Of a stretch of DNA of 40,179 nucleotides, positions 11,680 to 38,538 are shown in pieces; position 1 is the stretch's first letter, and each line of letters opens with the position of its first letter. A model generated the notes under the pieces. That model saw only the letters and a list, made by a program, of their open reading frames with translations. It had not been told where the DNA came from and did not search any database. The stretch spans positions 1 through 40,179 of IMG/VR virus record IMGVR_UViG_3300038555_000008; one strand, 5' to 3'. Both the position numbers and the translations under genes were made by a program. Source of the stretch: a virus.

Positions 11680-12032
11680 TTCGTGGCCTCGGCAAGCGTC
11701 GCCAGCGCCGATTGCTCCATCGCGCGCAGGCCGGGTAGCGTCGCCGGCGTGATCTCGACCCCCGCGAGCTCGGCGGTCGGCTTGATCGCGGCATAATCAA
11801 GCCCGGCGAGCTGGCCCGAAAAGGGATGGCGCCGCCATTGCGTGTCGAGCGCGAAGAACAGGGCGACGATGCCGGCATCATCGCGCAGTATCTCGATCGC
11901 GTCGTCGTCTGGTCGCGCATCGGCCTGAAATCGCGCCGGAAGCGCCGTATTCTGCGTTACCACGTCGTCGGCCTTTTCGCGTCGGCCGCCGCGCCCCGAT
12001 GCCCAGGCGCGCGCGACCGCCCTCAGTTTCCC
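11676..12032 (-). CDS. gpGT-like extension of the tail assembly chaperone, -1 frame (DUF1799-like)
   Basis: Read in the -1 frame from the slippery site GGGAAAC at 12026..12032. The product continues as KLRAVARAWASGRGG... and ends in LFFALDTQWRRHPFSGQLAG...LATLAEATK. The end is like DUF1799 proteins that lie between the tail chaperone and the tape measure. Joined to the upstream protein it would be a gpG-gpT fusion of about 255 residues. Separate initiation at a GTG near 11963 (VTQNTALPARF) is an alternative. The 3' end overlaps the tape-measure start by 4 bp. Confidence 0.75.
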   Translation of the reverse strand, partial: GKLRAVARAWASGRGGRREKADDVVTQNTALPARFQADARPDDDAIEILRDDAGIVALFFALDTQWRRHPFSGQLAGLDYAAIKPTAELAGVEITPATLPGLRAMEQSALATLAEATK

Positions 12033-12436
12033 TTGCGCTGCTCCGGCTGGGCGGTGCGCAACGCACGATAGGCGTCGGTAACTCCGGCGGCGAAGTTCGG
12101 GACGCGAAGCATCCGCTCCAGATTGTTCTTGGTAAACGCGACCGATCGCCCGCCTTCGCTTCCGTCGTCCTCGACCACGCCTTCCCAATTCTCCAGGATA
12201 CGAAGAATGAAGGGGGACAACACGCCGCTCAGCGTCTTGCGATCGTCCGGATTGTCGGCTTGCACCAGCGCGCTACCGACCTTGGCGACGTCGTCGTTGA
12301 ACGCGACGAACTCATCCTCGTCCAGAATGACGAAGCGCCCGCGGATCTCGTTGACGACGATTCCGCCCTCTTCGGTGACGCCGTTGAAGCGGATCGGCCA
12401 CCATGCCTTGGCCTGCGAAACGATTTTATATGCCAC
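12023..12436 (-). CDS. Tail assembly chaperone, gpG-like
   Basis: 137 residues (GTG start preceded by AGGAGG at about 12442..12447). Acidic middle (VVEDDGSEGGRSVAFTKNNLERMLR) with a conserved helical layout; ends TAQPEQRKGN at a slippery sequence. It lies between the tail tube and tape-measure genes, where long-tailed phages keep the chaperone that binds the tape measure and recruits tube subunits. The family identity is from position, size and the frameshift; I do not recognise an exact Pfam name. Confidence 0.8.
   Translation of the reverse strand: MAYKIVSQAKAWWPIRFNGVTEEGGIVVNEIRGRFVILDEDEFVAFNDDVAKVGSALVQADNPDDRKTLSGVLSPFILRILENWEGVVEDDGSEGGRSVAFTKNNLERMLRVPNFAAGVTDAYRALRTAQPEQRKGN
12026..12032 (-). 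other. Programmed -1 ribosomal frameshift site G_GGA_AAC
   Basis: The minus strand reads CGC AAG GGA AAC TGA. The heptamer G GGA AAC has the X XXY YYZ form used for -1 slippage and lies directly before the zero-frame stop (12023..12025). In lambda, GGGAAAG at the same stage of the G gene makes gpGT. A -1 slip here opens the 11676..12032 frame. Confidence 0.75.
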
Positions 12437-12589
12437 GATGGCCTCCTGTCAGAATATGGCGGGGATGTTCGGCTCCCCGCGCCGGACACTGATTGACGGC
12501 CAACCAGGGCTGTCGCTCGCTCCGGCGTGTGCACTGGCTAGGCGCCGCCGCCCCGAACGGCAGCCGCACGCCATCACAGCCCTCGGGTG

Positions 12590-13528
12590 TCAGGTTGCGG
12601 TGATGACCAGATCGTCCTGGCCGGCGAGGATGTTCATGCGGATGTCCATTTCCCACATGACCTTGCGATCCTCTTCGGTCTCGCTGATCGCCGTGATCTG
12701 CGTCTGCGCGCACGAAACGCCGATGGTATTGCCCGCCTCGACGCCGTGGGTAAGCGCGAGCGGCTCGATCGATGAGTCGTCGAGCGATGCGAGGAAGTCC
12801 TTGGCCGCCATCGACGGCGCCTCAACGACGAGCCGCCCCGTGATGCCGTGGTCGCCGCGGTTGACGTATCGCGAACCGATCAAATTGCGCAGATTGATGC
12901 CGATGCCGGCATTCAGCGTTAAGCTGCGCGCGATCAGTGAAAATCCTCCCAGCTCCAGCAGCGTATTGTCGGTGTTGACCTCCAGCGGGTCGATCCAGCG
13001 GTCGATCGTCGCGGCACCGGGCACATTGACGTCGCGCGGCGCCGCTGCCGGGATGAGGCACGTATAACTGAGGCCGATGAACGGATAGGCGCCGGCGGTG
13101 AAATCCATCGTGAACGTGCCGCGCGACCCGACGCCCTTGCGGCGCTGGTCGCCCATCCAGTGATGATGGGTCAGCGACGATTGCGCGGAATTCGCCGCTG
13201 CCATCTGCTGCGTCGCGCTGGTGTCGGGAACCAGCACCGCCGCAGCCATACCGCACGCTTCGAGCAATTCCATCCAGGCGGGAGCAACACCGGGGTCGCC
13301 CGACCCGGCGACCTCGACCTCATAGCTCAGCTCCTGCCGCTTGTTCGTCGCGAGGATCGGTGTCGAGCCGAAACTGCCGCGATCGAGGTTACGTTCGAGC
13401 GGGTCGGTAATCAGCGGCGACGCGCGGAAATTGCGTGTCAGGATCGCGTTATCGGCGAGCGTCGGAGCGGCGTCGGTGCCGTAGACCGCTTCCTTTTTCG
13501 CGGCGAGGACTTTGACGGCGTCAACCAT
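12590..13528 (-). CDS. Phage tail tube protein
   Basis: 312 residues, beta-rich, with typical tube features: an N-terminal segment (KVLAAKKEAVYGTDAAPTLADNAIL) used by siphophage tube proteins to describe a variable first strand, then alternating strands (SYEVEVAG, FTMDFTAGAYPFIGLSYTCLI). It sits after the tail terminator and before the chaperone. No sheath gene is nearby, so the tail should be non-contractile. A 153-bp gap to the chaperone follows, in which I see only the chaperone ribosome binding site. Confidence 0.85.
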   Translation of the reverse strand: MVDAVKVLAAKKEAVYGTDAAPTLADNAILTRNFRASPLITDPLERNLDRGSFGSTPILATNKRQELSYEVEVAGSGDPGVAPAWMELLEACGMAAAVLVPDTSATQQMAAANSAQSSLTHHHWMGDQRRKGVGSRGTFTMDFTAGAYPFIGLSYTCLIPAAAPRDVNVPGAATIDRWIDPLEVNTDNTLLELGGFSLIARSLTLNAGIGINLRNLIGSRYVNRGDHGITGRLVVEAPSMAAKDFLASLDDSSIEPLALTHGVEAGNTIGVSCAQTQITAISETEEDRKVMWEMDIRMNILAGQDDLVITAT

Positions 13529-13823
13529 CGGTGTGCTCCTTTTCGTCAGCGCCGGCCTTCAGCGCGGGATCTTCAATGTTCGCTTCCGCCAGCCAGCGGC
13601 GGCGTGCAGGGCCGGACAGCGGCAGGCCATGCTCGTCCAGCTCAAGCCCGGATTTCGGATCGCGGGCGCGCGGTGCGGTCGGCTCAGCCTGCGTCGCCTT
13701 CGGCTTGGCCGGCTTGCCACCGCGGCCCTTCGGGGCCTTGTCGTCGGCGGGCGGGGACGTAATCTGGTCGCCGCCGCTTTCGCCGGGGGTTGACTGGATC
13801 GCGGGATCGGTGTCATCCGCCAT
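13521..13823 (-). CDS. Hypothetical Pro/Lys-rich head-tail operon protein
   Basis: 100 residues, low complexity: acidic start (ADDTDPAIQSTPGESGGDQ), then a Lys/Pro/Ala-rich stretch (KAPKGRGGKPAKPKATQ), then RRRWLAEANIEDPALKAG. Likely disordered. It is between the tail terminator and tube genes with an 8-bp overlap into the tube gene. No family recognised; the codon pattern and tight packing support a real gene. Confidence 0.55.
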   Translation of the reverse strand: MADDTDPAIQSTPGESGGDQITSPPADDKAPKGRGGKPAKPKATQAEPTAPRARDPKSGLELDEHGLPLSGPARRRWLAEANIEDPALKAGADEKEHTDG

Positions 13824-14251
13824 CAGCTGTTTCCTTTCCTAAGTCTCCATGCGGCAGTAAAATCGACGGCCCATGCGACCCCCCAGCCGTCAGCGGCTAT
13901 CAGCCGCCCGCCCGCATAATCGCAGGCGCCCGAGGCGTCGGGATGCTTCCAGCCCGTCAGCGCATCCATCACTTTGATGATCTGGTCCTCCAGCTCGCGC
14001 GACGGGCCGCCGTCGATGCGCATCTTCGGCTTCAGCACGATGACGACCCGGAACATCGTCGCGACCCGCTGGTCGTGGATACCGTTCATCTCGTTCGGCC
14101 GCGCGGTCTCGCGATCGGGTATGATGAACAGCGCGGGGCTATGTGCCGGCGCCGCCTTCAGTCCCGCCCATTCGAGCACGCCCGCAACCTCGCGAAAGCC
14201 GCGCGCGATCAGGCGATCCACGATCGGCTGCGTCCGGATCAAACGGATCAT
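13823..14251 (-). CDS. Tail terminator / Mu gp37-like protein
   Basis: 142 residues. Order (after the gpG-like morphogenesis gene, before the tube) and fold pattern (helix-rich ends, central strands FRVVIVLKPKMRIDGGPSRELEDQIIKVMDALTGW) fit small tail terminator/completion proteins of B3-like phages. These cap the tail tube and join it to the head. Start ATG at 14251 overlaps the upstream stop. Confidence is moderate because the family is very diverse. Confidence 0.65.
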   Translation of the reverse strand: MIRLIRTQPIVDRLIARGFREVAGVLEWAGLKAAPAHSPALFIIPDRETARPNEMNGIHDQRVATMFRVVIVLKPKMRIDGGPSRELEDQIIKVMDALTGWKHPDASGACDYAGGRLIAADGWGVAWAVDFTAAWRLRKGNS

Positions 14252-14757
14252 GCCGCAATCCCCGCGTTCATCGCGCGCAGCAAATGACCCACCAGGATGC
14301 GGTCGATCGCCATAATGTCGTCATCCGAAAAACCGAGGTAGGAACGGCGCGGCATGGTGACGCTGGCGCGATAGCCGAACGGCGTGTTGAGCGCCTTGCC
14401 CGACTTCGGCCTGATCGTGCCGCCGAATTGATGGATTTTGCCATAGATCGCCGGGCCGCCCGTTCCATAGACGCCGACCGAGGCGAAATCCTCGCCGCTC
14501 TGCCGGTCGAGCGCATTATACAGGTCGCCGCTCGCCTGGAGCGTTTTGCGCCCCTCCTCGATCGCGGCGGCCGATTTCTTCCAGGGAATGCCCAACGGGT
14601 CGCGCTCTTCCTGAAAGCGCTCGAGCGTCCCTTCGAACATCACTTCGGACGATTCGGCCATCGGCGCCGACAGATCCGACGCGGCCTCGCGCAGCCGGCG
14701 CAACGTCGGCGCCAGCGCGTCGACCGTCGTGACATCGATGTCCAGGCCGCCGCTCAT
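14248..14757 (-). CDS. Virion morphogenesis protein, Mu gpG-like
   Basis: 169 residues with the family pattern: helical N-terminus (LDIDVTTVDALAPTLRRLREAASDL), a segment for a helix with PLGIPWKKSAAAIEEGRKTLQASGDLYNAL, then IYGKIHQFGGTIRPKSGK and PRRSYLGFSDDDIMAI. The HQFGG and PRRxYLG motifs are those of phage virion morphogenesis (Mu gpG / tail completion) proteins, which help join heads to tails. Start overlaps the upstream gene by 4 bp. Confidence 0.88.
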   Translation of the reverse strand: MSGGLDIDVTTVDALAPTLRRLREAASDLSAPMAESSEVMFEGTLERFQEERDPLGIPWKKSAAAIEEGRKTLQASGDLYNALDRQSGEDFASVGVYGTGGPAIYGKIHQFGGTIRPKSGKALNTPFGYRASVTMPRRSYLGFSDDDIMAIDRILVGHLLRAMNAGIAA

Positions 14758-15497
14758 CGGCCGTAGGACCGCAGACCGCCGACATAGCCCGAAAGCGCGT
14801 CGGGATAGGCGCGGCCGCCCGAATGGAACGAAACGCCGCCTTCGTCGGACGGGGGCGCGGCCGTGGCACCGGGCAGGCTCGATTTGCCGTCCTCGATCCG
14901 CTCAAGCGCGCGCTGCGCGGCCTTCGCTGGTGCCTCGATCCCGTCGGGGGCGCCGTTCGGATAGAGCCGCGCGCGGGCGATGTCCCCGATCCAGACCTTG
15001 ACGATCTCTGGCACGTCGACCAGCGGCAGCGTGTAACGATTGCCGAGCGCCGCCTGGACGATCGCCTGCGCGGCGGTGAGCGCGCCGACGAGAAGATCCT
15101 TGCCGATCCGGCCATCGCCGCGTTCGTCCGTCATCCGCACGGTCTCGTCCAGGCCGAACCGCTGGACGAATTCCGCGATCGACAGCATCGGCGCGCCGCC
15201 GTCGGGCATCGCCCAGGCGAGATCGAGCACCGCGACCTCGACCTCTGCCTGCGCGCGCGCGCCGACGGCGTCGTCGACCGTGACGGTCACCAGATACCTC
15301 TCGCCTGCGCCGCCTTCGCGAAGTTCCAGCGTCAAAGCCGATGCGAGCAGGTTGCCGACGGCCACCAGCTCGGTCGCGCCGGGCACGAGCCCGCGCGCCT
15401 CGACATCGATGCCGACAAGGTTGCTGATCGTCGATACGCCGCCGAATTCCATCGGCAGCCGCGCGATCTCGGCAGGCTGCTTGACGATAAATTTCAT
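14754..15497 (-). CDS. Mu gp36-like (DUF1320) head protein with extra N-terminal domain
   Basis: 247 residues. The C-terminal half (from about residue 105, MLSIAEFVQRFGLDETVRMTDERGDG...) is DUF1320, known from Mu gp36 and thought to be a head-completion/connector protein. It includes AIVQAALGNRYTLPLVDVPE and IGDIARARLYP. The N-terminal 100 residues (KFIVKQPAEIARLPMEFGGVSTISNLVG..., ending ERYLVTVTVDDAVGARAQAEVEVAVLDLAW) look like a beta-sandwich/Ig-like domain not present in Mu gp36, so this seems to be a fusion. ATG at 15497 chosen because it overlaps the upstream gene by 4 bp. Confidence 0.82.
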   Translation of the reverse strand: MKFIVKQPAEIARLPMEFGGVSTISNLVGIDVEARGLVPGATELVAVGNLLASALTLELREGGAGERYLVTVTVDDAVGARAQAEVEVAVLDLAWAMPDGGAPMLSIAEFVQRFGLDETVRMTDERGDGRIGKDLLVGALTAAQAIVQAALGNRYTLPLVDVPEIVKVWIGDIARARLYPNGAPDGIEAPAKAAQRALERIEDGKSSLPGATAAPPSDEGGVSFHSGGRAYPDALSGYVGGLRSYGR

Positions 15498-15709
15498 CGG
15501 CGCGTAACCCGCCTTGCAAGGCGCGTGACGCGCGTGATGATCACGTCGACCAACAGCGCGACGAGGAAGATGAACCACAGCGAGGCGATGATGCCGCCCA
15601 ATTTCGCCAGCTCGACCCGCTGCCCCTTGGGCGCGGCTGCGACACAGATCGCGACGATGAAGGCCAGCCCGGTCGAAATGGTGAGGTAGAAGATGGCGAG
15701 CGCCGCCAT
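15494..15709 (-). CDS. Small two-helix membrane protein
   Basis: 71 residues: two hydrophobic segments (IFYLTISTGLAFIVAICVAA and IIASLWFIFLVALLVDVII) around a short polar loop, and a basic tail (TRLARRVTRR). It is one of two adjacent membrane proteins placed in the head gene operon, far from the lysis genes. Holin-like in shape, but a role in envelope association of assembly is equally possible. ATG start at 15709 lies one base from the upstream stop. Confidence 0.65.
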   Translation of the reverse strand: MAALAIFYLTISTGLAFIVAICVAAAPKGQRVELAKLGGIIASLWFIFLVALLVDVIITRVTRLARRVTRR

Positions 15710-15710
15710 G

Positions 15711-15938
15711 TCAGCCCCCCGCGATCGGATAGCGAAGCGCCGAAGCGGCCAGCCCGCCGCCGACGATCCAGCCGACCGCACCGGCAAGCGCCGCAATCAG
15801 TCCGAGCAGGAACAGGCCGAGCCCGATTTCGAACATCGGTACATAGGCGCGGTGACCAAGCCGGATGACCGGCAGCGCCATGAGAATGACGCCGAGCAGC
15901 ATCACCAGGCCGGCGAGATGCGACAGCAAGTCGATCAT
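15711..15938 (-). CDS. Small membrane protein, holin-like
   Basis: 75 residues with two long hydrophobic segments (LAGLVMLLGVILMALPVI and EIGLGLFLLGLIAALAGAVGWIVGGG) and a short basic linker. Its start overlaps the stop of the preceding Pro-rich gene by 4 bp. It pairs with the next membrane protein gene. I recognise no specific family; two such proteins within the capsid operon are unusual for Mu itself. Confidence 0.62.
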   Translation of the reverse strand: MIDLLSHLAGLVMLLGVILMALPVIRLGHRAYVPMFEIGLGLFLLGLIAALAGAVGWIVGGGLAASALRYPIAGG

Positions 15939-16213
15939 GCCTTCGGCGCCTTGGGCTTCGGTGCGGCCTTGGGCTTCGCCGCAGGCTTCGGCTTCGCGGG
16001 CGCCAGCGATGCGGCGGGAGCGGGAGCAGGTGTCGGCGCCGGGGTCGGCGCGGGAGTGGGCGCGGGCGACTTCGCCGAGATCGGCGCGAGCTTCAGCGCG
16101 CCGATCTTGACCAGCTTGCCGCCTCGGCCTTCCGGCAGCGTAACAATCGTGCGCGGAGGGATGGGTTTCTTCCTGCCGTTCGACAACGGCGTAACGACTT
16201 CATAATCGGGCAC
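15935..16213 (-). CDS. Small head-operon protein with Pro/Ala/Lys repeat tail
   Basis: 92 residues. The ordered part (PDYEVVTPLSNGRKKPIPPRTIVTLPEGRGG) is short; from residue 50 on it is APTPAP and KPKAAPKP-type repeats, so disordered and positively charged. It lies immediately downstream of the major capsid gene. A role such as DNA or capsid binding is possible but not shown. The repeat DNA means an alignment could be misled. Confidence 0.55.
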   Translation of the reverse strand: MPDYEVVTPLSNGRKKPIPPRTIVTLPEGRGGKLVKIGALKLAPISAKSPAPTPAPTPAPTPAPAPAASLAPAKPKPAAKPKAAPKPKAPKA

Positions 16214-16279
16214 GGGGCACCTCTGGAAATTGGGAAAAGGCGGGCCGCCCGAAGGCGGCCCGCGATCGCGGCGCGCCGG

Positions 16280-17221
16280 TTAGCCGCCAGCGCCCTGGAA
16301 CAGGAAGCCGGCGTCGGCGCCGACCAGCTCGGCCGAGAATTCGTCGAAGACGTCATTGTCCCAGCTGCGCGTGTCCTTTTCCCACTGGCTGGGCGACACG
16401 AACGGATGCGCTTCGAGCTGATAGGTGTAGCCAAAGCTCGGCAGCGGCATCGCGCGCTGTCCTTCGGGCGGGACATAGGCGAGGATCGCATCGTCGCCCC
16501 AGATGTCGACGGTGGTATCTTCGTCCTGGTCGTAGATGCCGTCACCCGACACGACGAGCGGAATGTCCAGATACTCCTGGAGCATCGCGTTGGAGATCGT
16601 CGCCGCCGTCGTATGCTTGAAATGTTCAAGCACCTTGGGATGGTCCTTCAGCGCCTTTCGCGCCGTGGCGGCCAGCCCAAGGACGTTCGGGCGCTTCCCG
16701 GTGCGACCGCGGATCACTTCGACCGCGTCGCTGATCTGCGTTCGCGGATCGCTGCCCGGATCGGTCCAGACATCGGCCCCGGCGAGGGCGAGCTTGTTGG
16801 TCGCGGCATAGTTGGCGGCGTTGCGCGCAACTTCGGCCTGCTGGATTTCCTTCTCCATCGCGATCACCGCCAGCACGATATCGACGGCGGTCTGCTGAAG
16901 GTCGATGCCTGGAACAGCGGCGGCCTCGCCGATATATTCGAGCGGCACCGATGCGCGCAGGGCTTCCTGGTGCAGGTTCACCGCCTTGCCTTCGTAACCG
17001 AATTCGAGCTGCGCGATGCGAGCGCCGGGCGCGCGCCGCGTCTTGCGACGGCGGAAGCTCGATCGGTCGAACTCGATACGCTTGGCGGCGCGCGTCGGCA
17101 TGGTGACCGTCGGGAACAGGAAACGCCCGATAAATTCGGCCTGGACATAGCCTCGGGCATGGTTGGACAAAATCGGATCGACGACGCGAACCTGTGCGGC
17201 ATTCATTCCCGGACCGGTCAT
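16280..17221 (-). CDS. Major capsid protein
   Basis: 313 residues, after the protease/scaffold and decoration genes, as in transposable phages. Recognisable patterns: N-terminal arm (VVDPILSNHARGYVQAEFIGRFLFPTV), YIGEAAAVPGIDLQQTAVDI (long spine helix with MEKEIQQAEVARNAANY), VLGLAATARKALKDHPKVLEHFKHT, and a C-terminal strand FGYTYQLEAHPFVSPSQWEKDTRSW. It forms the icosahedral shell; an HK97-type fold is expected. Closest in style to capsids of sphingomonad and B3-like phages. Confidence 0.9.
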   Translation of the reverse strand: MTGPGMNAAQVRVVDPILSNHARGYVQAEFIGRFLFPTVTMPTRAAKRIEFDRSSFRRRKTRRAPGARIAQLEFGYEGKAVNLHQEALRASVPLEYIGEAAAVPGIDLQQTAVDIVLAVIAMEKEIQQAEVARNAANYAATNKLALAGADVWTDPGSDPRTQISDAVEVIRGRTGKRPNVLGLAATARKALKDHPKVLEHFKHTTAATISNAMLQEYLDIPLVVSGDGIYDQDEDTTVDIWGDDAILAYVPPEGQRAMPLPSFGYTYQLEAHPFVSPSQWEKDTRSWDNDVFDEFSAELVGADAGFLFQGAGG

Positions 17222-17291
17222 GGATGATATTCCTCGTTACTGTTGGAAAGGTTGGGCGACGCCGCCGATCGGATGACCGGCGGCATCAGAG

Positions 17292-17645
17292 TCAGGCCGC
17301 GGCCGGCGTGTGGACCAGCAGCACCTCGATCAGGTCGCCGTCGGCGGCGGCGGCCTGAAGCGCATAGGCGCCGATCGGACCGGCGCCGGCCTGGGCGATG
17401 CCCTTGCCGCTGCCGTCGGCCGCGGGTTTGATCGGCCCGCCCGCCGCGATCGCTCCGCCCGCTTCAAGCATGGCGGTGCCGAGCACGCGGACGGACAGGT
17501 CGACGCCGACGGCCGCGCCATAGGCCGAGACACCAAGCGGCAGCTCACCGTTGGCGGCATGATTGCCCGCAAAATCGACGAACCGCGCTGCCGCGATGAC
17601 CGTCGCGGCCGAAACCGTGAGGGAAAGAATTGGGGACTGCTGCAT
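17292..17645 (-). CDS. Capsid decoration/cement-like protein (DUF2190-like)
   Basis: 117 residues, low in charge and rich in Ala/Gly. Patterns SLTVSAATVIAAARFVDFAGNHAANGELPLGVSAY and AVGVDLSVRVLGTAMLEAGGAIAAGGPIKPAADGSGKGI are like the DUF2190 capsid-cement/head-fibre group, which stabilises shells. It is between the protease and the capsid gene, the usual location for such a protein. Start ATG near 17645 has a TTTCC-type weak upstream region. Confidence 0.7.
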   Translation of the reverse strand: MQQSPILSLTVSAATVIAAARFVDFAGNHAANGELPLGVSAYGAAVGVDLSVRVLGTAMLEAGGAIAAGGPIKPAADGSGKGIAQAGAGPIGAYALQAAAADGDLIEVLLVHTPAAA

Positions 17646-17689
17646 GGATGTTCCTTTCAGTCAGGCAGCGAAAAGGGAGGCGTGAGGCG

Positions 17690-18193
17690 TCAGCCGCCCG
17701 CGCGGCGGACGGCATCCATCCAGCCGAGCTTCGGATTTTCGGCTTGGAGCGCCTGCGCTTTCGCGAAGATCGCGGCGCGGGCGGGATCGACCTCGTAACC
17801 GGCGGGAGCGGCGAAGCTGGCGAGCTTGCCGTCGATCGCCTTGCCGTCGTCGGCCGCGATCTCGCCCAGGCTGACGAGCGGCTGCGCGGTGTCGAAGATC
17901 TTCAGCAGCGCGGCGCGGGGGGTCATGTCGGCAACGCCCTCGCCAAAGCTGACGACGTCGTCGCCGCCCAGCGCATCGAGCACGCCGACGAGCAGCGCCT
18001 TGCCCTCGGGCTTGATCTTCGCTTCCTTCAACAGCCCTTCGGCAAAGCTGACGTTCGCGGTGTGACGATCGTCTTTGGCCTTCTTCTCGGCCGCTTCCTC
18101 GCGCGCCTTGATCTTGGCCTCGCGGTCGGCGAGCGACTGTTCGCGCTCGGCGAAGCTCGCGTCCTTGTCCTTGTTGTCGTCGGTGGGGGGCAT
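17690..18193 (-). CDS. Nested scaffold protein from internal start in the protease gene
   Basis: In-frame ATG at 18193 with a good ribosome binding site (AGGAG, 6 bases before), giving 167 residues that begin PPTDDNKDKDASFAEREQ. The N-terminal half is a charged coiled coil (EREQSLADREAKIKAREEAAEKKAKDD). In Mu, gene Z inside I makes the scaffold from the same frame; this looks like the same strategy. The C-terminal part (TPRAALLKIFDTAQPLV, GWMDAVRRAGG) would bind the capsid protein. Confidence 0.7.
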   Translation of the reverse strand: MPPTDDNKDKDASFAEREQSLADREAKIKAREEAAEKKAKDDRHTANVSFAEGLLKEAKIKPEGKALLVGVLDALGGDDVVSFGEGVADMTPRAALLKIFDTAQPLVSLGEIAADDGKAIDGKLASFAAPAGYEVDPARAAIFAKAQALQAENPKLGWMDAVRRAGG

Positions 18194-18670
18194 GGCTTTC
18201 TCCTGCTCAAAGGTGACGAGATCGCCGGCATCACCGGCGGCGAAACTGACCCGGCCAAGCCCCTTCACGCCGGGCGCGTGCGCGCCCAGGAAGCCGACAT
18301 GCTTCAGGTAATATTGGCCGGGGGTGGGATTGTGGGGGTTGTCGGGCGGATAGAATTGCGCCGACACCTTGGCGTAGCGTCCCGCGTTCACCGCCTCGGC
18401 AAAGCTGGGTTCCAGCTGGGCTGGATCGGGATAGGCCAACAGCTCGTCACCCTGGACCTCCAGATGGTCGACCCAGCCATAGGCGGGATCGTTGAGCTGC
18501 GGATGACCGATGACGAGCGGGGCGGGATTGGCGGCGGCGTCATAGCTCGCCGCGATCGACGCAAGATCGCCTTCGCCCAGCGACACCTTGACGCCCTCGA
18601 CGGACGTGAAGGTGCCGGTGCGGAAAAGCCGGATCGGTTTGGGTGCGTCGGTAGCTGCGGCGTTCGTCAT
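17690..18670 (-). CDS. Prohead protease with fused scaffold domain, Mu gpI-like
   Basis: 326 residues. The N-terminal half (residues 14-150) is Mu gpI/Phage_pro: PIRLFRTGTFTSVEGVKVSLGEGDL, PLVIGHPQLNDPAYGWV (a His-containing motif), KVSAQFYPP (likely holds the active-site Ser), YYLKHVGFLGAHAPGVKGL. The rest is a coiled-coil scaffold also made separately from 18193. The protein cleaves the scaffold and itself during prohead maturation. ATG at 18670 chosen; an upstream GTG at 18679 (three codons earlier) is possible. It is the first gene of the leftward late arm. Confidence 0.88.
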   Translation of the reverse strand: MTNAAATDAPKPIRLFRTGTFTSVEGVKVSLGEGDLASIAASYDAAANPAPLVIGHPQLNDPAYGWVDHLEVQGDELLAYPDPAQLEPSFAEAVNAGRYAKVSAQFYPPDNPHNPTPGQYYLKHVGFLGAHAPGVKGLGRVSFAAGDAGDLVTFEQEKAMPPTDDNKDKDASFAEREQSLADREAKIKAREEAAEKKAKDDRHTANVSFAEGLLKEAKIKPEGKALLVGVLDALGGDDVVSFGEGVADMTPRAALLKIFDTAQPLVSLGEIAADDGKAIDGKLASFAAPAGYEVDPARAAIFAKAQALQAENPKLGWMDAVRRAGG

Positions 18671-18707
18671 TCCCCGCACTTAGGCGGGGGGGATGGCGCT
18701 GACCGGC

Positions 18708-30393: not shown

Positions 30394-30927
30394 GTGGCAC
30401 CTCGTTCCTCAATCGAGCGCAACCCGGCCCTTCAGGCTGCCGTCGAAAAGCTGATCGCCGAGGGCGAGCACACGATCGACGACATCCACGAGGCTGTCGC
30501 CGAATATGGCGTCTCGCGCTCGGCCGTCGGCCGCTACGCCAACCGATATCGCCCACTCGTCGATACCATCATCCGCGACCGCGCCGTCCGGCAGGCGATG
30601 CATAAGCACCTGCCCGCCGGCATCGACACCGGCCTGATCGACATCGCCATCCATCGCGCGCAGTCGGAAGTCCTGCGCGCGATGGATGCCTTGGGCGACG
30701 ATGAGGAGCCTGCGAACGCCGATCGCATCGGCAAACTCGTCCGCGCCCTCAACGGCGTCATCAAGGCGATGCGCGAAAAGCGCGAGTTCGAGGAAGAGGT
30801 CCGCGCCAGCGAGCGCGCTCGCGCTGCAGACGCTGCGGCCGAGGCAATGACCGAGGCCGGGGCCGGCGAGGCGCAGATCGAGGCAATCCGGCGCAAAATC
30901 CTCGGAATGCGGGAAAAGCAAGGATGA
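30394..30927 (+). CDS. DUF3486 protein, small-terminase-like (Mu gp27)
   Basis: 177 residues; GTG start one base after the upstream stop. Contains an HTH (TIDDIHEAVAEYGVSRSAVGRYANRY) and helical body (ALNGVIKAMREKREFEEEVRASERARAA), matching DUF3486 (Mu gp27). By position it is the likely small terminase subunit that recognises the pac site near a phage end. Ends overlapping the next ATG by 4 bp. Confidence 0.85.
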   Translation: MAPRSSIERNPALQAAVEKLIAEGEHTIDDIHEAVAEYGVSRSAVGRYANRYRPLVDTIIRDRAVRQAMHKHLPAGIDTGLIDIAIHRAQSEVLRAMDALGDDEEPANADRIGKLVRALNGVIKAMREKREFEEEVRASERARAADAAAEAMTEAGAGEAQIEAIRRKILGMREKQG

Positions 30928-31349
30928 GCGCGACCGATCGGCCGCAGCCGCTCTTGCGTTTCGCGGGACGGAGACCGGAGGAGGGCGCGCGTGCCAGCGC
31001 GCCGTTTCCGCTGGCCGTCGCACTGCGCGATTATGCGATAGCGCAGGGCCTGGCGATCGACAAGCTGACGCGCAGCCGCGTGGCAGCATCGGACAGCATC
31101 CATCTCGCGATGACCGACCTCGCTGGTCGCTGTTGGAATATGCGCGTTTCCAACCATCGCCGCCCGCGTCGCACTGGCCATGCCGTCCCGCACGTCGACC
31201 TTGTCAGTCTGGACGGCGTCGCCGGCATCGCCGTCGGCCGTCGTCTGATTGACGAAATCCTCGCGGGCAATGTGCCGTGGTTCGATCCCGATGAAACCAT
31301 CCGCCCCCTCCCGCGCACTCGCCGCAACAGCAGGATACGGCGCCGATGA
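30924..31349 (+). CDS. Hypothetical packaging-region protein
   Basis: 141 residues. Basic, with HLAMTDLAGRCWNMRVSNHRRPRRTGHAVPHVDLVSLDGVAGIAVGRRLIDEILAG and a very basic end (RTRRNSRIRRR). It is between the small and large terminase genes and overlaps both by 4 bp; DNA binding is plausible. No family recognised. Confidence 0.55.
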   Translation: MSATDRPQPLLRFAGRRPEEGARASAPFPLAVALRDYAIAQGLAIDKLTRSRVAASDSIHLAMTDLAGRCWNMRVSNHRRPRRTGHAVPHVDLVSLDGVAGIAVGRRLIDEILAGNVPWFDPDETIRPLPRTRRNSRIRRR

Positions 31350-33022
31350 CCGCCGCCCAGGAAGCGCCGACGGTCCTCCTGCCTTATCAGGTCGAGAGCA
31401 TCGAACTCGCCGAGGAGCATCAGTTCCTCGTCGTCGAAAAGTCGCGCCGTATCGGCCTCTCCTACGCCTTTTCGCCGTGGGCGAACCTTATGGCATCCGC
31501 CGCGTCGGGCGCGCAGAACGTCTATTACATCGGATACAACCTCGACATGGCGCGCGAGTTCATCGGCTATTGCGCCGATTTCGCTCAGGCATTCGAGGAT
31601 GTCCGCGTCTCGCTCCCCGACGAGGATCGATCCGAAACCTTCGTCCAGCGCCGTTTCGACGGCAGCTATCTCGACACGGCGGGCAGGGTTCTGCCCGACG
31701 CGACTGACGGCGATTTCCGTTCGGATCGCGTTGTCCAGGAAGCGCGCGGCGGCTTCCTGATCAAGGGCGATGCCGGCAAGTCGATCAAGTCCTTCCGAAT
31801 TGACTTTCCGTCGGGCAAGGCCGTCGTCGCGCTGCCGTCCAGTCCGCGATCGGTGCGCGGTAAGCAGGGCATCTTCATAATCGATGAAGCGGCCTTTCAC
31901 GACAATCTGGAAGAGCTGATCAAGGCGATCCTCGCCGCCCTGATGTGGGGCGGCCGTGTTGTCGTCATCTCGACCCACGACGGCACCGACAATTATTTCA
32001 ACACGCTGATCGAAGAGATCCGCGCCGACAAGCGTGGCGGCCACGTCCATCGCATCACGCTGAAGGATGCCATTGCCGCCGGGCTCTACAAGCGCATCTG
32101 CCTCGTCCAGGGCAAGGACTGGACGCCGGAGGCCGAGACGAAGTGGGAGGCCGATCTCCGCAAGACCTATGGCGATGCCGCCGACGAAGAACTGGACGTT
32201 ATCCCGTCGCGCGGGACCGGCACCTATCTCGCGCGCGCCACGATCATCGAAGCGATGTCCGCCGATCTGCCCGTCGTCCGACTGCGCTGCCCCGACGGCT
32301 TCGAACGCTGGGACGACGAGCGCCGCCGCGATTGGCTGCTCGAATTCCTTGAGGATGAGGTGAAGCCTTGGCTCGCCAACTTCGATCCAGCCCGCCGCAC
32401 CTTCATGGGTCAGGATTTCGCGCGCTCCGGCGACGTCTCGCCGGTCAAGTTTGGGCAGCATGACGAATATATGCGCCTGGTCTGCCGGCTGACGCTGGAG
32501 ATGCGCAACGTTCCCTTCTCGGATCAGGAATTCATCCTCGAATGGCTGATCCGTCGCGTCCCCCATTTCGCGGGCGGCAAGATGGACGCGCGCGGCAACG
32601 GCTCGGCGCTGGCCGAAAAAATGCAGATGCTCTTCGGCTTCGACGTGATCGAGGCCGTCATGGCCAGCGACAAGACCTACCTGAAATTCATGCCGCTGCT
32701 GAAGGCCGGCATCGAGGATCGCACCGTCATCTTGCCCTTTGACGAGGGCGAACTCGACGATTTGCGGATGATCAAAATGGTCCGCGGCATCCCGAAAATC
32801 CCCGATGGTCCGCAGCGGAGCAAGGAAGGCGGCAAGAGCGCCAAGCGCCACGGCGACAATGCGATCGCCGACATGCACCTGATCGCCGCCGCCGCCGAAG
32901 ATCCCGGCGACATCGAATTCATGAGCGCCGGCTCGCGCACCAGCGAAACTGGCGATTTCGGCACCAGCAATCGCGGCTTCGGCACCGTGTCGCGCCGCTC
33001 ACTCGGAGGATATGGACTATGA
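31346..33022 (+). CDS. Terminase large subunit, Mu gp28-like
   Basis: 558 residues. ATPase: Walker A-like VVEKSRRIGLSYA (29-41), Walker B GIFIIDEAA (175-183), coupling motif VVVISTHDGTDN (206-217). Nuclease: GQDFARSGDVS (Asp357), MDARGNGS (Asp414), HGDNAIADMHL (Asp504/Asp509) supply metal-binding acids. It pulls DNA into the prohead and cuts host DNA beyond the phage end. Start overlaps upstream by ATGA; the stop overlaps the portal start. Confidence 0.92.
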   Translation: MTAAQEAPTVLLPYQVESIELAEEHQFLVVEKSRRIGLSYAFSPWANLMASAASGAQNVYYIGYNLDMAREFIGYCADFAQAFEDVRVSLPDEDRSETFVQRRFDGSYLDTAGRVLPDATDGDFRSDRVVQEARGGFLIKGDAGKSIKSFRIDFPSGKAVVALPSSPRSVRGKQGIFIIDEAAFHDNLEELIKAILAALMWGGRVVVISTHDGTDNYFNTLIEEIRADKRGGHVHRITLKDAIAAGLYKRICLVQGKDWTPEAETKWEADLRKTYGDAADEELDVIPSRGTGTYLARATIIEAMSADLPVVRLRCPDGFERWDDERRRDWLLEFLEDEVKPWLANFDPARRTFMGQDFARSGDVSPVKFGQHDEYMRLVCRLTLEMRNVPFSDQEFILEWLIRRVPHFAGGKMDARGNGSALAEKMQMLFGFDVIEAVMASDKTYLKFMPLLKAGIEDRTVILPFDEGELDDLRMIKMVRGIPKIPDGPQRSKEGGKSAKRHGDNAIADMHLIAAAAEDPGDIEFMSAGSRTSETGDFGTSNRGFGTVSRRSLGGYGL

Positions 33023-35061
33023 ACGCTCGCACTCGCAAGCGGGCTACCGCAGCCGCAAACCGCAGGCTCCCGGCGCAGCTCGGCGCGGAGATCGCGACCA
33101 CCTCCGATGGCCGCGACATCACTCAGCCTTTCATTTCAGGGCTTCGCCAGCCCGCCGATCCGCGCCTCGCAGGCGCGGTCGATTGGGGCGTCTACGATAG
33201 TGTCTATCAGGACGATCAGGTCAAATCGACCTTCCAGCAGCGCCGCCTCGCCGTCGTCAAGCATACCTGGTCGACCTTGCCCGGCGACGAGAATGATCCC
33301 CGATCGGTCGAGGCCGCCGCACGTTTCGGCGAGACGATGGATCGCATCGGCTGGGACCGCATTACCGACAAGATGCTCTATGGCATCTATAACGGCTATT
33401 CCGTCGCCGAAATCATTTGGGGCGCCCGCGACGGGTTGATCGATATCGACCGCGTCAAGGTCCGCCACGCGCGCCGCTTCCGCTACGATGCGCAGATGCG
33501 ACTCCGGATGCTGACCATGACGGGCGGCCTCGGCGAGATTTTGCCCGATCGGAAATTTTGGGTATTCAAGTCGGGCGGATCGAACGACGACGAGCCCTAT
33601 GGTCGCGGCCTCGCCGAATGGCTCTATTGCCCGGTGCTGTTCAAGCGCAACGGTATCGGCTTTTGGAACACCTTCCTCGACAAGTTCGGCTCGCCGACGG
33701 CCGTCGGCAAGTTTCGTCCCGGCACCCCGAAGTCAGAACAGGCCAAGCTCCTCGCTGCGCTCCAGGCGATCGCCACCGACAGCGGGATTGCTATCCCCGA
33801 GGGCATGGCAATCGAGCTGCTCGAAGCCGCGCGATCGGGCACCGGCAATTACGAGCAGCTCGTCCGCTACATGGACGAGGCGATCGCCAAAATCGTCCTG
33901 TCGCAGACCATGACCACGCAAAATGGCTCCAGCTTGAGCCAGGCCGAGGTTCATCAGGACGTGAAGTTCGAAGTCGTCAAATCCGACTCCGATCTGCTCT
34001 GCGACAGCTTCAATGCCGAGGTTGCGCGCTGGTGGACCGATCTCAATTTTGGCCCCGACGTCGCCAGCCCGATCGTCTCGCGACCGGTCGAGCAGGAAGC
34101 CGACACCAAGGCACAGGCCGAGACCGACGAAAGCCTTGACCGGCTGGGCTGGGTCCGCACCGACGAAAGCTTCCGCGACACCTATGGCGACGGCTACGTC
34201 CGCAAGCCGAAGGCGGCCGACCCCGCCGATGGCGACAAGGTCGATGGCGATGATCCCGACGCCGGTGAAGCGAACGACAACGATCCCGCCGACCCGAACG
34301 TCAACGACCGCAATATCAGCTTCGCGGCCGACGATCCGCGCCCGCTCTACGTTTACCGTCCCTTGACCGAGGAAAGCGCGGCCGAGCTGCTCGCCTGGGC
34401 CCGCGAGGAGGGCTTCACCGAATTGATGCGGCCCGAGGATCTGCACGTCACCGTCATGTATTCCAGCCGCCCGGTGAACTGGATGAAGATGGGCGGCTTT
34501 TGGGGATGGGGACCGGACACAAGCGAGCATCTCGTCCCCTTCGGCGGCCCGCGCCTGGTCGACCGGATTGGCGCCGACGGCGCCGTCGCGCTCCACTTCT
34601 TCTCGGGCCACCTCAATCAGCGCAATCGCGAAATGCGCGACGCCGGCTGTAGCTGGGATTATCCCGACTATCTGCCGCACATCACCTTCACTTACTGGCC
34701 GGGCGACGTCGACCTGAAAAAGGTGACCCCATTCCGCGGCGAACTGCGCTTCGGTCCCGAGGTTTTCGAGCCGATCCAGTCGGAGTGGGAAAAGGAAATC
34801 CGCGAGGCCAGCTTCGCCGAAACCGACGTCCCCGACAGCGCGACCGACGATCTGGTCGACGATTTGATCGCCGAGGACGGCTACCGTGCTGTCCGCGCGC
34901 TCACCGAGCCCATGCTTGGCGCGATCCGCGCGGCACGCTCCCCCGCAGAGCTGCTCGCCATCCTGGGCGTCGCGCCCGGCGACACCGCGCCGATCGCCGC
35001 CGACATCGAAGCCGCCGGCCTCGCCGCCTCGCTCGATGCCCAGGAGAGCAACGATGTGTGA
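33019..35061 (+). CDS. DUF935 portal protein (Mu gp29-like) with inserted Acb1-like 2H phosphoesterase domain
   Basis: 680 residues, about 170 more than Mu gp29. Residues 20-380 are the DUF935 portal core (FISGLRQPADPRL..., TFQQRRLAVVKHTW, KIVLSQTMTTQNG). A low-complexity acidic linker (398-440) follows. Residues 442-590 match the Acb1-like C-terminal domain of DUF1073 proteins: LHVTVMYS (His476, Thr478) and LPHITFTYW (His554, Thr556), with GGPRLVDRIG and DAGCSWDYPDY. T4 Acb1 uses the same two HxT motifs to cleave CBASS cyclic nucleotides. The last ~75 residues (PMLGAIRAARSPAELLAIL) resemble the normal portal C-tail, so the domain is inserted. Activity is untested. Confidence 0.85.
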   Translation: MNARTRKRATAAANRRLPAQLGAEIATTSDGRDITQPFISGLRQPADPRLAGAVDWGVYDSVYQDDQVKSTFQQRRLAVVKHTWSTLPGDENDPRSVEAAARFGETMDRIGWDRITDKMLYGIYNGYSVAEIIWGARDGLIDIDRVKVRHARRFRYDAQMRLRMLTMTGGLGEILPDRKFWVFKSGGSNDDEPYGRGLAEWLYCPVLFKRNGIGFWNTFLDKFGSPTAVGKFRPGTPKSEQAKLLAALQAIATDSGIAIPEGMAIELLEAARSGTGNYEQLVRYMDEAIAKIVLSQTMTTQNGSSLSQAEVHQDVKFEVVKSDSDLLCDSFNAEVARWWTDLNFGPDVASPIVSRPVEQEADTKAQAETDESLDRLGWVRTDESFRDTYGDGYVRKPKAADPADGDKVDGDDPDAGEANDNDPADPNVNDRNISFAADDPRPLYVYRPLTEESAAELLAWAREEGFTELMRPEDLHVTVMYSSRPVNWMKMGGFWGWGPDTSEHLVPFGGPRLVDRIGADGAVALHFFSGHLNQRNREMRDAGCSWDYPDYLPHITFTYWPGDVDLKKVTPFRGELRFGPEVFEPIQSEWEKEIREASFAETDVPDSATDDLVDDLIAEDGYRAVRALTEPMLGAIRAARSPAELLAILGVAPGDTAPIAADIEAAGLAASLDAQESNDV

Positions 35062-35182
35062 CGATGCGCTGGAAAGCGACGATCTCATCGAATGCGCCCA
35101 TTGCGAGGGCCTATTCCTGTCGGAAGACATGAATGGCGAGCATTGCCGGGAATGCGCATCGGAGCTGTTCGGCGATGACTGA
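35054..35182 (+). CDS. Zinc-ribbon-like microprotein
   Basis: 42 residues, starting 8 bp inside the end of the portal gene. Two CxxC pairs (ECAHC and HCRECAS) suggest one bound zinc ion. Such short phage proteins often bind nucleic acid or a partner protein. It is followed by a DUF1643-like gene and precedes gp30. No family named. Confidence 0.6.
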   Translation: MCDDALESDDLIECAHCEGLFLSEDMNGEHCRECASELFGDD

Positions 35183-35717
35183 CGACATCCGCCGGGCCGC
35201 TCAGTTCATTCTCGGTGACCGCATCTCACTATCCCGCGATTGGGGACCGGGACCAAGAGCGTTCGTCCTCGGCCACAATCCGGCACGCGCGGACGCGGAC
35301 GACGACGACATGACGGTGCGTTGGCTAATTGCATGGTTCCGACTTTTCGGCTTCGGCGGATTTGATCTCGGCAATCTCTATCCTTTTGTTACGGCTGATC
35401 CGTCGGAATGCCGCCGCCGCGCAAATTGGGCTGCGACCAACGATTGGCACGCTCGCGACCAGATGCTGTTCGTCAATCTGCCCGCCGTCGTGGAGATGGC
35501 GAAGGCGGCCGATCAGGTATTTGTGTGTTTCGGCGCGATCGCGCGCGACTGGCAATGGGTCGAACATGTCGTCGAGGAAATCCAGAGTGGCCTAAGTCCA
35601 TATCCCGATCTTTGGTGCTGGGAAAAGGCGAAGGCCGGGGCACCAAAGCACCCGATGGCGCGCGGTGCCCATAGAATTCCCCGCGATCAGAAACCGATCC
35701 TCTGGAGGGCAGCGTGA
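35175..35717 (+). CDS. DUF1643-like protein
   Basis: 180 residues. RAFVLGHNPARADADDDDMTVRWLIAWFRLFGFGGFDLGNLYPFVTADPSECRRR and QVFVCFGAIARDW fit DUF1643 (pattern LNPS.AD...D.T..R...F....G..G....NL...). Function unknown; the fold resembles uracil-DNA glycosylase-like proteins in my recollection, which is weak. Inserted between portal and gp30, where Mu has nothing. Confidence 0.7.
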   Translation: MTDDIRRAAQFILGDRISLSRDWGPGPRAFVLGHNPARADADDDDMTVRWLIAWFRLFGFGGFDLGNLYPFVTADPSECRRRANWAATNDWHARDQMLFVNLPAVVEMAKAADQVFVCFGAIARDWQWVEHVVEEIQSGLSPYPDLWCWEKAKAGAPKHPMARGAHRIPRDQKPILWRAA

Positions 35718-35953
35718 GCGGCTGGAAGAAGCAAAATCTTGACCTTGCGAAGGCGGGCGAGATGCTTCGCGACTATGCGGCGCCATGCGACGGTGATCCG
35801 ATCCACGCGGCGGTGTTTCGCGATCGGCGGGGGAGGCATCGCCGCATCGCTGCCCAATATGCCGACGGCCGGAAGCTCCAGGTCAATTTTTCTCTATGCG
35901 GGGCCGTCAGCAGTTTTTCGCTATCCTGGTCGTTGCGTTTGGCGAATAAATGA
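35714..35953 (+). CDS. Hypothetical small protein before gp30
   Basis: 79 residues from a GTG overlapping the upstream stop. Basic middle (FRDRRGRHRRIAAQYADGRKLQVNFSLCG) and a hydrophobic end. Its stop overlaps the gp30 ATG by 4 bp. No family recognised. Confidence 0.5.
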   Translation: MSGWKKQNLDLAKAGEMLRDYAAPCDGDPIHAAVFRDRRGRHRRIAAQYADGRKLQVNFSLCGAVSSFSLSWSLRLANK

Positions 35954-37158
35954 GCACCCGGCCCGACCTCCGCGACACGATCTACTTGGACCCCGGCGAC
36001 ATCATTGCCGCCTGGGCCGAACGATCGGGCTATCGCTTCTCCAAGCATTGGACCGATACGTGGCAGGAAGAGCACGCGGCCGCGTTCACCGTCGCCAAGG
36101 TCGCCCGCCTCGATCTCCTCACCGCGATCCGCAATTCGCTCGACGACGTGATCCGCAATGGCGGCACGTTCGAGCAGTGGAAGGCGAACCTGCTCCCGGA
36201 GCTGAAGAAGCACGGCTGGTGGGGCGTCGTCCAGGACGAGGCGCTGACCGGCACGCCCGATCCCGTCATCGTCAACGAGCGTCGGCTGCGCACCATCTAC
36301 CGGACCAATATCCGGATGAGCATGGCGGCGGGCCGCTGGCGCAAATATCAGCGCGAAAAGGAGCTGTTCCCCTATCTGCGCTACCGCTCGGACCATTTCC
36401 GCAAGCACCCGCGCCTCGATCACAAGAGCTGGCATGGCCTGATCCTGCGCGTCGACGATCCCGCGTGGCAGTGGCTCTTCCCGCCCAACGGCTGGGGCTG
36501 CAATTGTCGCGTCGAGCAGGTCAGCGAAGCGCGGATGCGTCGCATGGACTGGAAGGTCGATGAGGCACCCAATCCGCCCCGCCACGACTTCATCACCGCC
36601 GCCGGGGAGATCGTGTCGGTGCCGCAGGGCATCGCGCCGGGCTTCGGCTACAACCCCGGCACGGCGCACCTTCGCGTCCTCGCCGATCGCGCGACCGCGT
36701 CGCTGACCTCGGCGATCGGCGCCGGCCTCGAAGGCGTCGCGCGGCAGACGCTGCGTGAGCTGGTCGCCGAACCCGCCTTCGATCAATTTCTCGCGCTGCC
36801 CGATCCGCAGTTCCCGGTCATGATCCTCGACGACATGATGGCGGGCGCAATCGGCGCGAGGGCGCGCGTCGCCGTCCTGTCCGAGCAGACGATGGAGAAG
36901 CAGCTGCACAAGCGCGGCGAGTTGTCGGCCGACGTCTATCGTCAGCTCCCCGGCCTCGGCGATCGGCCCGACGTCGTCGCTCGCGACGGGGAAAATGTGC
37001 TGATCGTCACGCGCGAGGAAAGCGGCGCCTGGGTGGTCGCGATCGTGAAACGCACGGCAAGCGGCGAGGGCCTGTTCGTCGTCAGCGTCCGGCGCCAGAA
37101 CGAAGCGTCGCTCCCGCGCCTTCTGCGCGATGCGGAGATCATCCTTGACCGTCGGTAA
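35950..37158 (+). CDS. Head morphogenesis protein (Mu gp30/F-like) with C-terminal PBECR-like nuclease domain
   Basis: 402 residues. Residues 20-210 are the Mu F-like minor head protein: RTIYRTNIRMSMAAGRWRKY, HPRLDHKSWHGLILRVDDP, PPNGWGCNCRV (180-188). The C-terminal domain (about 285-400: VAVLSEQTMEKQLHKRGELSADVY... WVVAIVKRT... FVVSVRRQNEASL) resembles the PBECR domains (phage barnase/EndoU/colicin-E5/D/RelE-like nucleases) fused to such proteins. His320, Lys367 and Ser379 could be active residues. If right, infection could deliver an RNase with the virion. The domain call is from memory of the family and needs a profile search. Confidence 0.8.
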   Translation: MSTRPDLRDTIYLDPGDIIAAWAERSGYRFSKHWTDTWQEEHAAAFTVAKVARLDLLTAIRNSLDDVIRNGGTFEQWKANLLPELKKHGWWGVVQDEALTGTPDPVIVNERRLRTIYRTNIRMSMAAGRWRKYQREKELFPYLRYRSDHFRKHPRLDHKSWHGLILRVDDPAWQWLFPPNGWGCNCRVEQVSEARMRRMDWKVDEAPNPPRHDFITAAGEIVSVPQGIAPGFGYNPGTAHLRVLADRATASLTSAIGAGLEGVARQTLRELVAEPAFDQFLALPDPQFPVMILDDMMAGAIGARARVAVLSEQTMEKQLHKRGELSADVYRQLPGLGDRPDVVARDGENVLIVTREESGAWVVAIVKRTASGEGLFVVSVRRQNEASLPRLLRDAEIILDRR

Positions 37159-37445: not shown

Positions 37446-37646
37446 ATGCAGGAGTCGATCAGGTGCGGCGGTTGCCGCGCTCTTTTGTTCAAATGTCAGC
37501 CGGACGCGATTTCCGGCGCTATAGAAATCAAGTGTCGACGTTGTCGGCAAATGAACCATCTGAGGCCGCTGAGCCCTTCTCCGACCGCCGATCGAGCAGC
37601 AAGTGGAGAATGCCATTGTGGCTCTACGTCCCCCCAACCAACATGA
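37446..37646 (+). CDS. com: Com-like zinc-binding translational activator
   Basis: 66 residues. SIRCGGCRALLFKC...IEIKCRRCRQMNHLRPLSPS matches Mu Com (SIRCKNCNKLLF...IEIRCPRCK), with CxxC pairs forming the zinc finger. In Mu, Com opens a hairpin on the mom message to allow its translation. Here com runs 29 bases into the methyltransferase gene, so Com probably controls that gene instead. This is one of the clearest family matches in the right arm. Confidence 0.9.
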   Translation: MQESIRCGGCRALLFKCQPDAISGAIEIKCRRCRQMNHLRPLSPSPTADRAASGECHCGSTSPQPT

Positions 37647-38538
37647 ACTCCTCGGCCTGTCCCTCTGTGCAGGCTACGCCGGTCTCGATCTCGGAATATC
37701 CATCGCCGAGCCCCGATATCGAACTGTCTGTTACGTCGAGCGGGAAGCCCACGCGGCGGCAACTCTCGTGGCCCGGATGGAAGACGCGGCCTTGGATCAG
37801 GCGCCTATATGGGACGATCTGCGATCCTTCGACGGCCGACCGTGGCGCGGCCGCGTTCATATCCTCTCTGCCGGTTACCCCTGCCAGCCATTCAGCCTTG
37901 CCGGAAAGCGACGAGGCGAAGCCGACCCTCGCCATCTGTGGCCGGAGGTCGAGCGAATTATCGGTGAAGCCGATCCAGCGATCGTCTTCGCCGAAAATGT
38001 CGAAGGCCACATCGATCTGGGATTTGCCGACGTCGCCGCAAGCCTTCGCCGGTTGGGCTACCGCACAAAAGCGGGCTTGTTCACATCGCGAGAAGCGGGC
38101 GCTCGCAACCGCAGGCGACGCCTCTTCATCATGGCCCACTCCGACCGCGTCGGATGCCGGCTACATGCCGGACTTGATGGTTGGCGGGACCGTTCGTCCG
38201 ACCTCGCCCTATCACAAAGCGCAAGGAAGCAGCGGCCAATACAGTCTGACGAACGCGGCGCGGGCATGGACGCAGCTCTGGCGGACGATGCGGGCGCTCG
38301 GGTGGGTGCCGATTGCGATGCCCCCTTGTTCGCACCCGGTCCGGGTGAGCTTCAGCATTGGCACTGGCTCCTCAATCGGCAACCTGATCTCCAACCCGCG
38401 CTTCTTCGAGATGGTGATGGGGTGGCCGATCGATTGGACCGCACCCGAGGGGCGGGTAACGGGGTTTGCAGCTTGGCGGCGGCGCTCGCGTGGAGCACTC
38501 TCCGGGCTGACTTTGCCCGGTCCGAGTGGCCTCTATGA
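37618..38538 (+). CDS. Cytosine-C5 DNA methyltransferase
   Basis: 306 residues from GTG 37618, which has GGAG 9 bases upstream; GTG 37603 is also possible. Motif I LSLCAGYAGLDLG (14-26), motif IV AGYPCQPFS (Cys89 nucleophile), motif VI FAENV, then GLFTSREAGARNRRRRLFIMAHSD and C-terminal motif IX/X TRGAGNGVCSLAAALAWSTL. It methylates cytosine in a sequence-specific way and could protect phage DNA from host restriction, taking the place of Mu mom. The 3' third is also open in the +1 frame with methyltransferase-like motifs (separate entry). Codon use in that part is less host-like (more CTA, ATA, CGA) than in the +1 frame. Confidence 0.9.
   Translation: MALRPPNQHELLGLSLCAGYAGLDLGISIAEPRYRTVCYVEREAHAAATLVARMEDAALDQAPIWDDLRSFDGRPWRGRVHILSAGYPCQPFSLAGKRRGEADPRHLWPEVERIIGEADPAIVFAENVEGHIDLGFADVAASLRRLGYRTKAGLFTSREAGARNRRRRLFIMAHSDRVGCRLHAGLDGWRDRSSDLALSQSARKQRPIQSDERGAGMDAALADDAGARVGADCDAPLFAPGPGELQHWHWLLNRQPDLQPALLRDGDGVADRLDRTRGAGNGVCSLAAALAWSTLRADFARSEWPL

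Follow-up and report, generated by a model that had tools for sequence, protein, structure and literature searches.

In the complete virus record analysed here – 40,179 bases, referred to throughout as the window – the Mu-type portal gene contains an Acb1 domain placed between two short motifs that resemble repeats in the phage's own head maturation protease. We propose that the head protease probably excises Acb1 from the portal at head maturation, and that the released enzyme would degrade CBASS messengers. This proposal is built on the identity, fold, and active site of the domain, the purifying selection acting on it, the flanking motifs, the co-variation of portal and protease motifs, and the existence of relatives with an empty site.

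The portal open reading frame is uninterrupted over its full length, and lies between the large terminase and F genes, as is typical for a Mu-type portal (Table 1). Its Portal_Mu match is nearly full length, covering profile positions 3–335 of 336. The head and tail genes are split, unlike those of Mu, with terminase, portal, and F organized rightward (30394-37158, +) and the protease, capsid, and tail genes leftward (3683-18679, -). This split order is common to relatives with and without Acb1, and a connection between the divergent head-gene order and the cassette was rejected because several portals lacking Acb1 are in genomes with the same order. At the right end, a cytosine-5 DNA methylase gene (37603-38538, +) adjoins F; an S24-type repressor gene and sequence resembling host DNA come after the methylase.

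Table 1. Coordinates of the portal gene, its parts, and other head genes in the window.
Feature	Coordinates	Strand	Evidence
Mu-type portal gene with Acb1 cassette, 680 aa	33019..35061	+	ORF; Pfam; PHROG 113
Portal_Mu (PF06074 = DUF935) domain, residues 58-390	33190..34188	+	Pfam E=4.5e-97
Upstream predicted head-protease site ISFAA, residues 433-437	34315..34329	+	11.3 bits; conserved in fusion family
Acb1 domain (PF23474), residues 442-592	34342..34794	+	Pfam, AF2, Foldseek, residue mapping
Downstream predicted head-protease site ASFAE, residues 597-601	34807..34821	+	13.1 bits
Portal C-terminal tail, residues 606-675	34834..35043	+	own HMM
Large terminase	31346..33022	+	PHROG 2 E=8e-27
Mu F-like minor head protein	35950..37158	+	Pfam PF04233 E=6e-16
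Head maturation protease, scaffold-like C-terminal part	17690..18679	-	PHROG 976 E=6e-80; motif scan
Major capsid protein	16280..17221	-	PHROG 1005 E=4e-80

Portal residues 442-592 belong, with near certainty, to the Acb1 family. Their match to Pfam PF23474 (E=4e-34) scores 118 bits, above the cut-off of 27, and covers profile positions 2–143 of 144, and a DNA-level search locates Acb1 at the same place as the protein match. The initial annotation had suggested an Acb1-like domain at 34342-34788 (residues 442-590) from two HxT motifs located 78 residues apart – LHVTVM (His476, Thr478) and PHITFT (His554, Thr556) – with GGPRLVDRIG and CSWDYPDY between them; all of these are present as described, and both the profile and structural comparisons bear out the suggestion. 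PHROG comparison of the portal reports portal families together with phrog_755 ('RNA ligase') at residues 441-592, and a phmmer search of PDB sequences matches the Pam3 portal 8hds (E=7e-24) and Acb1 7t26 (E=3e-6). The NCBIfam profiles gave no named match to the portal, and the PADLOC profiles returned nothing for it.

An AF2 model of the domain, generated from 53 aligned domains, has a pLDDT of 87.6 and a pTM of 0.83, and was used in place of a whole-portal model from 12 sequences, which was poor (pLDDT 49). Foldseek comparison with the domain model ranks the FBB1 Acb1 structures 7t26/7t27 first (E 9e-9), followed by the phage phosphodiesterase 9q2y and LigT, and the named top matches in a BFVD structural search are also Acb1. 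The 8hds portal chain is absent among the 50 structural matches listed, despite being the best sequence match; the Acb1 domain may have been left out of the 8hds model.

Acb1 activity was demonstrated in 2022 (PMC9117128), and the catalytic tetrad of the T4 protein (gp57B) – H44, T46, H113, and T115 – aligns with portal H476, T478, H554, and T556. T4 Y12, E141, and W147 align with portal Y444, E584, and W590, and comparison with the T4 ligand residues Y12, W74, F107, E141, and W147 yields matches at Y444, Y548, E584, and W590; the T4 Trp74 contact is without a clear counterpart, which counts against our proposal. The tetrad and the Tyr, Glu, and Trp residues are kept in 22–23 of 23 non-redundant Mu-type members (the T115 position is Thr in 21 and Ser in two), and dN/dS values of 0.03-0.26 for the Acb1 part in five comparisons show it to be under purifying selection. 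From these residues and the modelled fold, the domain is quite likely to be active on CBASS messengers. Substrates of 2H enzymes vary and structures of the LigT type rank next after Acb1 in the fold comparison, so a 2H domain with another role (in RNA end processing, as an RNase, or as a structural part) has to be considered, and an RNase was favoured in PMC5512222, which predates knowledge of Acb1. We regard such a role as unlikely, since Acb1 and not LigT provides the best fold and profile matches, and 22 of the 23 members retain the Glu that reads adenine (T4 E141) and the Trp of the lid (W147). In the L014/L042 lineage the first catalytic His is exchanged for Tyr, with the remainder of the domain and the two protease motifs intact; this substitution also weighs against the proposal, and this form of the domain is possibly inactive or binding-only.

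The portal tail that follows Acb1 is recognized by our own HMM in relatives that lack the domain, so the initial annotation was correct in describing an insertion with the normal portal tail behind it, and also in placing it in a portal family other than DUF1073. Two pairs of sister portals (L081/L163 and L040/L162) each comprise one with and one without Acb1, and both pairs differ by a block (SFAADDP...Acb1...) positioned directly before a common SFAE.

The head maturation protease contains repeats behind its protease domain, reading VSFAA, ASFAE, VSFAE, VSFGE, VSLGE, and ASFAA. The similar motifs around Acb1 – ISFAA, separated by 4 aa from the start of the domain, and ASFAE, the one also present in relatives without Acb1 – are, by sequence comparison, very likely protease sites. 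In an unbiased scan of all portal 4-mers against the protease of the same phage, the top two non-overlapping positions of the window portal are the flanks of Acb1. For Mu, B3, JY19, and L013 the scan ranks the single linker site highest; for YPCBV-1, StM171, and L046 it did not show the linker site. A five-column site profile was also built from the proteases of other phages, with the window left out. Across the 9,930 aa of window proteins it finds matches above 8 bits at eight places in the protease, two in the portal (13.1 and 11.3 bits), and three elsewhere (maximum 10.5); the shuffled rate of 0.32 per 1,000 aa means that about three such matches are expected by chance.

Both sites are conserved among 26 non-redundant portals with Acb1. 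The downstream site scores at least 8 bits in all 26, and the upstream site does so in 21 and reaches at least 5 bits in 26/26, while 1–2% of shuffled segments attain 8 bits. Of 26 Mu-type portals lacking Acb1, 22 carry a site ahead of the tail. RR1-B and RcapMu (L057:6929-8347 and L058:6899-8275) have a protease-like motif near the portal N-terminus (residues 10-15) and not before the tail.

The motifs in portal and protease also vary together. The residue preceding the F/L position agrees between a portal and its own protease at a frequency of 0.61, compared with 0.35 when permuted (reached in 0/20,000), and at 0.447 compared with 0.203 for portals without Acb1 alone; shared ancestry is retained in both comparisons, and is counted against our proposal. 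In Mu, ALSA is repeated in the protease and the portal has KEAALSAED at approximately position 428; B3 has EFAE and JY19 has FAA in protease and portal alike, and a Sphingomonas paucimobilis type has AFAE/ALAE. In one clade the portal site reads VSLAEG or VDLAEG, and the corresponding protease contains VSLAEG and V/ADFAER.

Repeated scaffold motifs can act as binding elements, and the SFAE-like motif could in principle be a docking or scaffold-binding element common to protease, scaffold, and portal, with Acb1 remaining on the portal. We consider this improbable, because the first copy of the motif is at the protease/scaffold boundary with additional copies in linkers, and the motif falls within low-confidence, probably flexible segments of the poor whole-portal AF2 model. 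Moreover, in a fused portal-MuF frame (L240) the motif is located between the portal and its tail (NFAEAF) and again before MuF (VAFAAP), as at a polyprotein junction. Mature Mu particles lack the portal tail past this point, and the last 124 residues of gp29 are unseen there; this is ascribed to cleavage by protease I, in the wording that the portal 'may undergo' it, and published portal cleavage is confined to Mu, as an inference (PMC11915804). The initial annotation had envisaged that the domain could remain on the portal, in perhaps 12 copies per virion. With protease motifs at both edges and the region absent from the mature Mu portal, excision is the likelier outcome.

In the mechanism that we favour, cutting at the motifs, enzyme activity, and the place of action are the parts that we infer. 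The portal would assemble with Acb1 attached, bringing the domain into the procapsid, where the activated protease would cut at both flanking sites to yield a trimmed portal (approximately residues 1–435), free Acb1 (approximately 18 kDa), and a tail peptide. Release of Acb1 as a free domain is likely, judging from the flanking sequences, and the freed enzyme would hydrolyse CBASS messengers through HxT/HxT acid-base chemistry, in the producing cell, less certainly after travel in the virion, or in both settings. Such release appears unnecessary for Acb1 generally, because the domain is at the C-terminus of DUF1073 portals without such sites.

It is a real possibility, a little short of even, that Acb1 acts in the producing cell at a late stage, either on unassembled portal or as a freed domain, and that the sites mainly serve to trim the portal for unobstructed packaging. 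The portal gene is a late structural gene expressed in the lytic cycle, fusion to it gives co-expression, and the uncut Acb1 of DUF1073 portals is compatible with action at this stage. However, T4 Acb1 activity is early (PMC11722364), and trimming would need the upstream site alone, yet the downstream site is present in all 26 fusions; its retention suggests that separation from the tail matters, beyond portal trimming.

Excised Acb1 could alternatively stay in the capsid and be ejected with the DNA, pre-arming the next host in the manner of P1 DarA and the T4 internal proteins. In the related phage JBD30 the portal crown and wing are inside the head (PMC11445458), and the tail and Acb1 should be inside too; P1 DarA sets a precedent as a co-ejected protein that the prohead protease cuts (PMC12810830), and head-packaged 2H fusions were proposed earlier in PMC9503650. 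Carriage in the virion and ejection into the next host is nonetheless doubtful, as no more than 12 copies would be present per head and no retention signal was seen. In addition, the cleaved JBD30 scaffold exits the procapsid through pores (PMC11445458), and freed Acb1 might be lost likewise.

The window portal has features in common with several known systems. Its Acb1 domain resembles T4/FBB1 Acb1 (gp57B; PMC9117128, 7t26/7t27) in its PF23474 match, fold, HxT/HxT tetrad, and Tyr/Glu/Trp ligand residues, but T4 Acb1 is a free early protein and not a portal domain with protease motifs on both sides. DUF1073 portals with Acb1 (phiPSA1, RHEph04, and Pam3 8hds) are likewise portal fusions and contain the domain's nearest sequences, although they are of another family and have Acb1 as the last domain, whereas in this PF06074 portal a tail follows it. 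Bracketing motifs were looked for in these DUF1073 portals and not found, with phiPSA1 a weak case. In Mu (portal gp29, protease gpI) the portal is of the same family, carries a single protease-like motif, and lacks its tail in the virion (PMC11915804), but it has no Acb1 and one ALSA site rather than two SFAE-like ones. P1 DarA (PMC12810830) is similarly an anti-defence protein processed by a prohead protease and ejected, but it is a protein in its own right that targets restriction, rather than a portal domain with two predicted cutting sites.

Polyvalent-protein surveys from 2017 and 2022 (PMC5512222, PMC9503650) already reported 2H domains fused to MuF or portal domains and suggested that these might be injected to counter nucleotide signalling, so the general idea of a 2H domain on a head protein is not new. 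The available text of these surveys describes no Mu-type insertion cassette or head-protease processing, and neither a bracketed plug-in cassette in Mu-type portals nor motif co-variation was found in the openly licensed literature searched. From its sequence organization, the Mu-type portal linker might conceivably be a cargo slot, in which an immune-evasion enzyme placed between protease sites enters the procapsid within the obligatory portal dodecamer, is cut free, and is delivered with the DNA, although we hold this only tentatively. If true, this would be a polyprotein-like loading of a fixed dose of anti-CBASS enzyme, released once the protease is activated. More broadly, the loose idea of head-carried portal-2H domains becomes a mechanism that can be tested at defined sites, in which the head-maturing protease would also release an immune-evasion enzyme. 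A simple sequence rule, that protease and substrate have a repeated motif in common, can serve to find other processed proteins in Mu-like heads, and near-identical phage pairs with and without the cassette provide natural comparison material.

SMODS (CBASS cyclase) profiles score above cut-off in 32 of 299 host-family genomes, some weakly, and this scarcity of CBASS cyclases is a further point against our proposal. Sphingobium faniae has both an Acb1-portal prophage (L040/L229) and a CBASS set of consecutive CD-NTase, HORMA, and TRIP13 genes (L220:1483-3412), with PADLOC matches to the cyclase (E=6e-128), HORMA (5e-80), and TRIP13 (2e-66). The target pathway is present in a host, which does not imply its encounter with the Acb1 portal. 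Acb1 itself is above cut-off in nine of the 299 genomes of this Sphingobium faniae family, always in portal-sized frames, four of them Mu-type and five of another portal type.

The fusion is recurrent, and is present in IMG/VR records, prophages of Sphingomonadales, and one Thermomonas MAG. A search of 50,697 phage genomes gave no match spanning 80% of the portal plus Acb1 query, and the Acb1 part by itself matched portals of the DUF1073 type and T4-like phages as well as stand-alone genes. The presence and absence of Acb1 on a 60-portal tree involves five changes, at least three of them forced by supported branches, and single descent of the cassette with the portal was tested against this pattern and set aside. 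Acb1 domains from Mu-type portals cluster in a single weakly supported group (67) nested within those of DUF1073 portals. Together with the changes on the portal tree, this makes a single acquisition, followed by exchange or loss, the likeliest history of the Mu-type Acb1 as read from the sequences.

Among the ten longest Mu-type portal frames from 783 further genome searches no other cargo was found in the slot, and the extra length results from portal-MuF fusion or run-on. Portal-MuF fused frames of 731-904 aa are present in other Pseudomonadota genomes (L235, L237, L238, L239, and L240). 'Prohead protease' labels in Roseobacter and Edwardsiella phages suggested an Acb1-protease fusion, which was rejected because these genes are stand-alone Acb1 homologues (Roseobacter phage DSS3P8, L066:3992-4444; Edwardsiella phage ZHS, L067:2116-2715). 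In Synechococcus phage Yong-M3-232 (L065:158-2144) Acb1 is a separate frame behind the portal, and the portal 3′ end and Acb1 5′ start encode the same approximately 42 residues, reflecting either a tandem duplication or an assembly error. In a further locus (L021:5734-6813) Acb1 is fused, as judged by eye, to a ChaB-like part on its N-terminal side and to an XkdF-like prohead protease part on the other, a further tie of Acb1 to head proteins.
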